NCBI GenBank assembly: GCA_036279355.1
Contig: DASUJH010000024.1
Coordinates: 1-64,000 of the forward strand
Direction: 5' to 3'
Source of the DNA: Gemmatimonadales bacterium
GTDB lineage: Bacteria; Gemmatimonadota; Gemmatimonadetes; Gemmatimonadales; GWC2-71-9
DNA length: 64,000 bases
Part shown: one piece after another, positions 38,922 through 40,245 of the stretch
Numbering within the stretch: the first letter of the stretch is position 1
Layout of the letters: each line of letters begins with the position of its first letter
Notes under the pieces: generated by a model
What the model was told of the DNA's origin: nothing
What the model saw: only the letters and a program-made list of their open reading frames with translations
Database searches by the model: none
Made by a program: the position numbers and the translations under genes

Positions 38922-39005
38922 GCCGAAGTGGTGGAACTGGTAGACGCGCTGCGTTCAGGGCGCAGTGGGCGCAAGCCCGTGCGGGTTCGAGTCCCGCCTT
39001 CGGCA
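38922..39005 (+). tRNA. tRNA-Leu (anticodon CAG)
   Basis: An 84-base class II tRNA. The acceptor stem GCCGAAG pairs with CTTCGGC and a discriminator A follows. The anticodon stem CTGCG/CGCAG encloses the loop TTCAGGG with anticodon CAG. A long variable arm (TGGGCGCAAGCCCGT region) and a T-arm GCGGG-TTCGAGT-CCCGC are present. CCA is not encoded. A long hairpin begins only two bases after the discriminator. Confidence 0.95.
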
Positions 39006-39006
39006 T

Positions 39007-39098
39007 GGGCGGTAGAGGCGGTAAGGATGGTGAAGGCGGTAAGGACTCGGCCGGCGCAGTTCTTACCGCCTTTACCATCCTTACCGCCTCTACCGCCT
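39007..39098. repeat. Long hairpin made of 9-base repeats, directly behind tRNA-Leu
   Basis: Positions 39008-39047 pair with 39058-39097: a 40-bp stem with a 10-base loop. Every position pairs except that two pairs (39032/39073 and 39044/39061) are G-U in plus-strand RNA. Each arm is built from a 9-base unit, GGCGGTAGA, GGCGGTAAG, GATGGTGAA, GGCGGTAAG. The hairpin lies between tRNA-Leu and the 3' end of the convergent MoeB gene, where it could terminate either transcript, act as a tRNA 3'-processing signal, or be a dispersed repeat. Only TTT follows on the plus strand. Confidence 0.9.
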
Positions 39099-39099
39099 T

Positions 39100-40245
39100 T
39101 CAGTATCGCTTCAGCGATGCATCCACTTGCTGCGCCCATTCATCTATTCCCCCGCTCAGCGTCCTCACCTGCGTGAACCCTGCCGCCTCGAGAAGCTGGC
39201 GGGCTTTCTCGGCACGGGCGCCGTGGTGGCAGATGGTGACGAGGTCGGCGCGGGGGTCGATCTCGCGAAGCCGGTCGGGGAGTTGGCCGAGGGGGAGGGG
39301 CATTGCGCCCGCGATGTGGGCGATCTCCCACTCCCATGGTTCGCGCACGTCGAGCAGGACGAGCGGCATATCGGTGGCCCGGTTGCCTGCCAACTCCTGC
39401 GCGAGCGCGCGCGACGTCACTGCGTCCGCGCCGGCGCGATCCGCGGTGACACCGCAGAATGCCGCGTAGTCAATCGGCTCGGTGATCGTGGGGTGCTCGC
39501 CGCACACCGGGCACTCGGGGTCCTTCGATACGCGCAGCTCGCGAAAGCGCACCCGCAGGGCATCGAAGAGCAGCAGTCGACCTACCAGAGATTCTCCGAC
39601 GCCGGTCACCCACTTGATGGCCTCGAGAGCCTGCAGGCTGCCGACGATGCCGGGCAGCACGCCGAGCACACCGCCCTCGGCGCAGTTCGGCACCAGCTCG
39701 GGCGGCGGGGGCTCAGCATACAGGCAGCGGTAGCACGGGCCTTCCGGCGCGTAGAACACCGACGCCTGCCCCTCGAAGCGAAGGATGCTGCCGTAAACGA
39801 GCGGCTTGCCGAGCCAGACGCAGATGTCGTTGACGAGGTATCGGGTGGGGAAATTGTCGGTGCCATCCACGACGATGTCGTAGTCACCGAGGATCGCGCG
39901 CGCATTGGCCGCCGAGAGCCGCTGCTCGATGGGCACGACGCGAACGCCGGGGTTGAGATCGGCGATGCGCTCGGCCGCGGAGGCGACCTTGGGCCGGCCG
40001 ATCGCGCTGGTACCGTGGAGAACCTGCCGCTGGAGGTTGGTGAGATCGACGCGATCGAAGTCGATGAGCCCGAGGGTGCCGACGCCGGCGGCGGCCAGAT
40101 ACAGGGCCGCCGGCGACCCGAGTCCGCCGGCCCCGATGAGAAGTACGCGAGCGGCCGCGAGTCGTTCCTGACCTCCGCGGCCGATCTCGGGCAGCATCAG
40201 GTGCCGGGCGTACCGGACGAGCTCATCAGCGGATAGCGCACCCAC
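39100..40245 (-). CDS. moeB: MoeB/ThiF-type adenylyltransferase fused to rhodanese
   Basis: The protein has 381 residues. The N-terminal E1-like domain (~1-250) has the ATP loop LIGAGGLGSPAALYLAAAG, the DGTDNFPTRYLVND motif and two Cys pairs (CYRC, CPVC) for zinc. The C-terminal rhodanese domain (~275-381) has active-site CHHGARAEKA. Such fusions (MoeZ/MOCS3 type) adenylate the C-terminus of ThiS/MoaD-like carriers and transfer sulfur for molybdopterin, thiamin or cysteine synthesis. The carrier is not in the window, so the pathway is open. The start is GTG 40245, ten bases after the Rrf2 gene. Confidence 0.92.
   Translation of the reverse strand: MGALSADELVRYARHLMLPEIGRGGQERLAAARVLLIGAGGLGSPAALYLAAAGVGTLGLIDFDRVDLTNLQRQVLHGTSAIGRPKVASAAERIADLNPGVRVVPIEQRLSAANARAILGDYDIVVDGTDNFPTRYLVNDICVWLGKPLVYGSILRFEGQASVFYAPEGPCYRCLYAEPPPPELVPNCAEGGVLGVLPGIVGSLQALEAIKWVTGVGESLVGRLLLFDALRVRFRELRVSKDPECPVCGEHPTITEPIDYAAFCGVTADRAGADAVTSRALAQELAGNRATDMPLVLLDVREPWEWEIAHIAGAMPLPLGQLPDRLREIDPRADLVTICHHGARAEKARQLLEAAGFTQVRTLSGGIDEWAQQVDASLKRY

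Follow-up and report, generated by a model that had tools for sequence, protein, structure and literature searches.

Tandem-armed hairpins near 3' gene ends of a Gemmatimonadales bacterium, and the tRNA-Leu/moeB junction in its relatives

Bidirectional terminators of convergent genes constitute a known class (PMC5381666), and the element described here, found between convergent tRNA-Leu and moeB genes of a Gemmatimonadales bacterium, resembles them in being a strong hairpin located directly past stop codons and tRNA ends and common to both convergent genes, with a T5 tract at one of its copies. It differs from intrinsic terminators in its 40-pair stem of tandem 9-mers, in having no U-tract on either strand, and in belonging to a dispersed sequence family. 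Dispersed intergenic palindromes are also found in REP/BIME and RAYT systems (PMC2817692), and the likeness extends to GT(A/G)G-like words in the arms and to the presence of a Y1 transposase gene in the genome; however, the transposase gene found here has no flanking element, the arms consist of tandem units whose number varies, and the unit differs between genomes. In terms of architecture only, the loci not being homologous, the closest parallel is offered by stem P6b of the tRNA-Leu(UAA) intron of Nostoc, in which heptanucleotide repeats form both arms and two unrelated 7-mers swap while the structure stays (PMC4476775). There as here, both arms are made of one short unit, the arms pair, and the unit is swapped at a constant site; nevertheless, P6b is one intron stem with two words at one locus, whereas the present hairpins occupy many gene-end loci per genome and use many words.

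In Neisseria and Haemophilus, according to Kingsford 2007 as cited in PMC2267715, inverted copies of a genome-specific word, the DNA uptake sequence, form hairpins downstream of genes. The likeness lies in a genome-specific short word whose inverted copies form hairpins past genes. Uptake words are single inverted pairs of one fixed word, whereas here each arm carries several tandem copies and variants. Rickettsia palindromic elements interrupt protein genes without breaking the reading frame. The idea, which PMC2267715 cites by title, has a parallel here in palindromes placed in frame in the linkers of PolA-, UvrA- and RpoN-like proteins, although most of the present copies are intergenic and tandem-armed. 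Among open-access papers, a scope outside which most subscription papers lie, none was found on gene-end families of this kind in Gemmatimonadota. To our knowledge, such families have not been described in this phylum. Template switching has been proposed to explain the origin and persistence of long, perfectly paired RNA stems (PMC8794818), and the present hairpins raise the further question of how transcripts are ended in high-G+C bacteria when no U-tract is present.

The hairpin between tRNA-Leu(CAG) and moeB

The window, i.e., the whole 64-kb stretch of DNA analyzed, comes from a draft genome of 3.25 Mb in 60 contigs (97.5% complete), referred to below as the source genome. On its plus strand, ARAGORN located a tRNA-Leu gene with anticodon CAG and no encoded CCA (38922..39005), its sequence ending in ...CTTCGGCA and followed by TGGGCGG. 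The convergent gene on the minus strand (ORF at 39100..40245, stop codon 39100-39102) encodes a MoeB/ThiF part and a C-terminal rhodanese-like part, and is called moeB-like as read from sequence, without a family scan; the closest relatives of its product (tblastn) belong to Gemmatimonadota MAGs and are 57-67% identical.

The whole tandem-armed hairpin occupies 39007..39098, without strand assignment, and its outermost pair is G-U. Sequence, folding and base pairing confirmed the original prediction of a 40-position hairpin with tandem 9-mer arms, lying 2 bases from the tRNA end (39005) and 2 bases from the convergent moeB stop, whose sole two deviations are G-U pairs in plus-strand RNA and A-C in the opposite transcript: the arm 39008-39047 pairs with the arm 39058-39097 through 38 Watson-Crick and two G-U pairs. 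The folding energy was -86.2 kcal/mol for the plus strand (z -16.6, shuffled mean -33.1) and -76.8 kcal/mol for the minus strand (z -13.3), and no shuffle folded as well as the hairpin (0/200). By length and pairing, 39008-39097 is the top inverted repeat of the window, and the covariance model described below matches the hairpin on both strands.

The 5' arm (39008..39043, plus strand) is purine-rich and consists of four 9-mer units, GGCGGTAGA GGCGGTAAG GATGGTGAA GGCGGTAAG, with a period of 9 (shuffle p 0.000), and the 3' arm (39062..39097, plus strand), CTTACCGCC TTTACCATC CTTACCGCC TCTACCGCC, repeats this order as a mirror, including the odd third unit GATGGTGAA. In register, pairing amounted to 38/40 positions (minus-strand count), versus 19/31 and 20/31 when the arms were slid by one unit. 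Sequence searches found the core, GGACTCGGCCGGCG (39043..39056, plus strand), exactly or with one to few changes in at least 8 other copies of the genome. The array is absent from the Tandem Repeats Finder list of the window since an arm comprises no more than four units, and these have diverged.

As in intrinsic terminators, the stem is G+C-rich, stable and just past a gene end; however, no U-tract directly follows it on either strand (flanks TTTCAG on the plus and CATGCC on the minus strand), which disqualifies it as a canonical intrinsic terminator. A scan for canonical terminators gave no match at the site. A known Rfam RNA family was ruled out, as no match exceeded the gathering score; the sub-threshold microRNA-precursor matches obtained are an effect that any long hairpin gives.

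A dispersed family with covarying arms

The 9-mer is not confined to the junction, and the search proposed for further copies was positive genome-wide. Two adjacent units (GGCGGTARR twice) were found 18 times in the source genome and 0 times in the reversed control, a hairpin pattern search gave 17 matches per strand versus 2 in the control, and a covariance model (CM) built from eight copies produced 44 matches at E<=1 over both strands, corresponding to ~20 distinct sites. Altogether, ~20 dispersed copies with GGCGGTARR arms are present, many of them with the core GGACTCGGCCGGCG, and arm length and unit number vary between copies. Two simpler family markers were rejected: the core alone, with matches mostly coding and weakly above control, and the loose single-unit pattern GGYGGTRRRG, with counts near control. 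The pair GGGGGCTCCGCCGACAAG...GGCTCCGCCCCC, common to L238 8391-8574 (G000:C60:148391) and L159 (G000:C4:115765), is a candidate second core lineage, suggesting more than one such lineage in the source genome.

Among 11 tRNAs of the source genome checked for hairpins, as envisaged in the original prediction, the element was found behind the two tRNA-Leu genes only; the 9 others lacked it, some of them carrying ordinary short hairpins. The copy that directly trails tRNA-Leu(TAG) is followed by ATTTTT, the normal terminator layout, and is the only one with a T5 tract, most copies having no U-tract behind them. Thus, the element is not tRNA-specific, and most copies come after protein genes.

As for placement, the 18 intergenic copies of the source genome comprise 5 convergent, 13 codirectional and no divergent ones, and the codirectional copies lie at a median of ~12 nt from the 3' end of the upstream gene and ~40 nt from the next start. 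When 10 copies from the related genome G049 were added, 10 convergent copies were observed versus 3.3 expected (p 0.0008) and 1 divergent versus 5.5 expected (p 0.017), expectations being computed by number of gaps; these p-values are indicative, since genes were called with a purpose-made, approximate simple dicodon model, the G049 copies were hand-picked as tandem-armed from the list of the inverted-repeat scan, and the copies of a family are not fully independent. The copies favor 3' gene ends. Palindromic copies were also observed in frame inside polA-, uvrA- and rpoN-like genes (L157 1501-1602, G000:C56; L166 1460-1544, G000:C43; L155 1501-1607, G000:C7; names read from protein sequence, without a family scan), where they add residues at apparent linkers, the polA-like copy sitting before the 3'-5' exonuclease part.

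Because a fold-based scan over all intergenic gaps proved too noisy at 70% G+C and was dropped, ungapped inverted repeats (score >=17, with shuffled controls) were scanned over ~400-460 kb in each of three genomes. Intergenic repeats numbered 7, 4 and 13 in the three genomes and coding ones 2, 4 and 1, versus 0, 1 and 0 in order-1 Markov control sequences; the intergenic repeats are mostly tandem-armed in the source genome and G049, and mixed in G016.

Pairs covary among copies, bearing out the compensatory change that was looked for: in the alignment of eight copies, 8/31 pairs changed on both sides, and both the number of both-side-changed cells and the covariation score were matched by 0/500 shuffles, every slid register scoring lower, with the proviso that few copies are aligned and that the same alignment yielded the structure. 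Across 33 pooled periodic hairpins, pairing in register was 0.90, a value favored by choosing the best register, and 0.77 when slid by one unit. The 5' arm was purine-rich in 30/33 of these, although hairpins with a common unit are not independent and the independent cases are fewer than 33; at the tRNA-Leu/moeB junction, the 5' arms had G>C in 20/22 hairpins and A>T in 15/22. By symmetry, purine-first order holds on both strands, and therefore each transcript makes a purine-rich arm followed by a pyrimidine-rich one. An exception is the junction of G056 (L252), a ~14-copy array of the 7-mer AGCGAAT with a shorter inverted arm, which is pyrimidine-first.

The original prediction had further read the G-U versus A-C difference as a hint that structure is maintained in the tRNA-side transcript. 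A maintained hairpin is supported by the copies found genome-wide, including the one behind tRNA-Leu(TAG), and by the covarying pairs; on the other hand, its restriction to the tRNA side was not supported. Two transitions share a strand half the time by chance, so that the hint is weak, and the sense RNA was the more stable one in just 6/13 codirectional copies (Wilcoxon p 0.47), so that the tRNA-side transcript is not singled out. Selection for pairing on the sense strand was not supported by this comparison.

The junction in relatives

The region behind moeB was read in 70 genomes of the family, 57 of which keep the convergent tRNA-Leu/moeB order. These kept junctions comprise 29 with a gap of <=35 nt and without a long hairpin, 6 with longer gaps and without a strong hairpin, and 22 with long hairpins (z below -4). 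The long hairpin is thus dispensable in the 29 relatives where the junction is kept without it. From the 22 hairpins, 16 passed the periodicity test and four more (G014, G016, G020, G046) look tandem by eye; those of G015 and G043 do not.

At this slot, relatives have a different hairpin or none, and the tandem unit, of 7-10 nt, differs by lineage, with words including GACGGATA, GACGGAGAG, AGCGGTCGAA and GGTCGAA; the relatives are mostly MAG drafts, and units found in closely related genera cannot be counted as independent. By genome, the junction unit is GGCGGTAAG in the source genome, GACGGRTA in genus g4, GACGGAGAG in G047, GACGGCAAG in G049, AGCGGTCGAA in G038, GGTCGAA in G044, GGGGAGT in G020 and AGCGAAT in G056, with others besides. 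GACGGRTA words are dispersed across g4 genomes and absent from the source genome, and the unit of the latter was detected (E<=1e-6) in 26/102 family genomes and in 3/186 other genomes of the order; therefore, a unit is scattered through one genome and gives way to other units in other genomes. With hairpin gain, loss and full sequence replacement at the junction of 57 genomes, and further copies in each genome, template switching becomes testable on a natural series.

In some copies, the tandem arms surround a canonical terminator hairpin, at times with A/T tracts (L292 1490-1615 in G018, AGTGGTCAGGAGAGCCTTCTCCTGACCACTTTTT; L288 1424-1530 in G013; L217 at the G049 junction), suggesting that arms can grow around a pre-existing 3'-end hairpin. 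A significantly folded core was found in about a third of the copies with long cores; nested terminators, being confined to a subset of copies, cannot be taken as the rule. Other palindromes, whose arms are not tandem, were also observed, namely L326 11549-11695 (G049) and L220 (G043 junction), of the GTCATCCCGAGGAGCGTCAGCGACGAGGGATCT and CACCCTGAGCACAGTGAAGGGG types, the non-tandem palindrome of G043 occupying the same moeB/tRNA-Leu slot.

Proposed function and rival explanations

The explanation that we favor with moderate confidence is that of a bidirectional 3'-end hairpin family, acting as terminator or exonuclease block, with lineage-specific tandem units and with arms inter-copied by template switching. 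It builds on the dispersal, the 3'-end bias, the mirrored unit order, the covariation between copies and the replacement of units at the junction in relatives, and from sequence we infer that a 3'-end function, here between tRNA-Leu and moeB, would be exerted in RNA. The terminator layout of the tRNA-Leu(TAG) copy, the canonical terminators nested in arms of some relatives and the purine-rich 5' arms also speak for it. In one route, the hairpin itself would end transcription by means of its long, fast-folding stem, with a pyrimidine-rich, weak RNA:DNA hybrid present while the 3' arm is made; hybrids of pyrimidine RNA and purine DNA are weak. In another route, the hairpin would stop 3'-to-5' exonucleases once Rho has ended transcription at a point farther downstream; Rho is encoded in the genome, and Rho-dependent ends are trimmed back to stable structure in E. 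coli and B. subtilis (PMC12350095). On the tRNA side, where CCA is not encoded, the discriminator base would be freed from the hairpin by an endonuclease, RNase Z for instance, cutting between the two. The arms would probably be kept paired by replication template switching that copies one arm onto the other, a process that creates and mends RNA stems (PMC8794818), and slippage would alter unit number. Intrastrand switching has been proposed to give an excess of U-A over A-U (PMC8794818), and as the present hairpins do not show it (A>T in 15/22 5' arms), the detailed route may differ. The missing U-tract at most copies speaks against plain intrinsic termination, and a 3'-end function is also disfavored by the in-frame copies in protein genes, where termination would be harmful, by a sense RNA that is no more stable than the antisense one (sense stabler in 6/13), and by the short-gap junctions without a long hairpin in 29 relatives.

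As a broader and doubtful extension, lineages may use their own repeat words to wrap 3'-end hairpins in sleeve-like double arms. No dedicated transposase would be needed for the word to spread between unlinked gene ends and to be mirrored into both arms, so that shape would be inherited and sequence replaced. If true, these hairpins would form a distinct repeat class in which the unit of inheritance is pairing, not sequence.

The same mirrored unit order and high arm identity, the rapid unit turnover and the many relatives without a hairpin could also result from neutral mutation by a known mechanism, in which slippage lengthens a short repeat, template switching mirrors it, and the product survives without function where harmless. 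We consider this quite improbable: a purely neutral origin accounts for the turnover but not for the convergent-end bias, as the convergent enrichment and the closeness to upstream 3' ends go beyond mere promoter avoidance; besides, for one unit to recur at many unlinked sites in a genome, it must spread between loci, and the purine-first bias is strong. That one unit recurs at many loci, together with the symmetry of both strands and the enrichment at convergent junctions, would equally fit an element acting in DNA, either as arrays of inward-facing protein-binding sites, comparable to gyrase or IHF binding at BIMEs, or as a cruciform handling supercoils between converging genes. Nevertheless, the unit differs among related genomes, so that any cognate protein would need to keep pace with it, and many copies are codirectional and near stop codons, which leaves this explanation highly improbable.

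The strongest rival, though rather unlikely in our judgment, is a non-coding mobile palindrome of REP/BIME or MITE type. Such an element would be mobilized in trans by a Y1 (RAYT-like) transposase, insert into intergenic gaps and be tolerated at the 3' ends of genes. The common core of dispersed copies in the source genome, the presence or absence of the hairpin at the orthologous moeB/tRNA-Leu junction and the in-frame copies within coding genes agree with mobility, as does the one Y1_Tnp gene of the source genome (G000:C59:9598-9936, L244). However, neither GGCGGTA nor TACCGCC occurs within 1.5 kb on either side of this gene, and since two inverted REPs invariably border a RAYT gene (PMC2817692), the linkage fails for lack of a defining feature. 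Further, the copies of G049 have their arm unit in common but not their core, which simple transposition of one element would not yield, and no direct target-site duplication could be seen beside the window copy, the one inspected for it. REP/RAYT families are recognized by >100 intergenic copies per genome of a constant short palindrome, compared with ~20 sites by CM and variable arms here. Y1_Tnp is present in 27/61 relatives, and the DNA just upstream of the Y1/RAYT-like gene of the source genome (L244) translates as a short tandem repeat.
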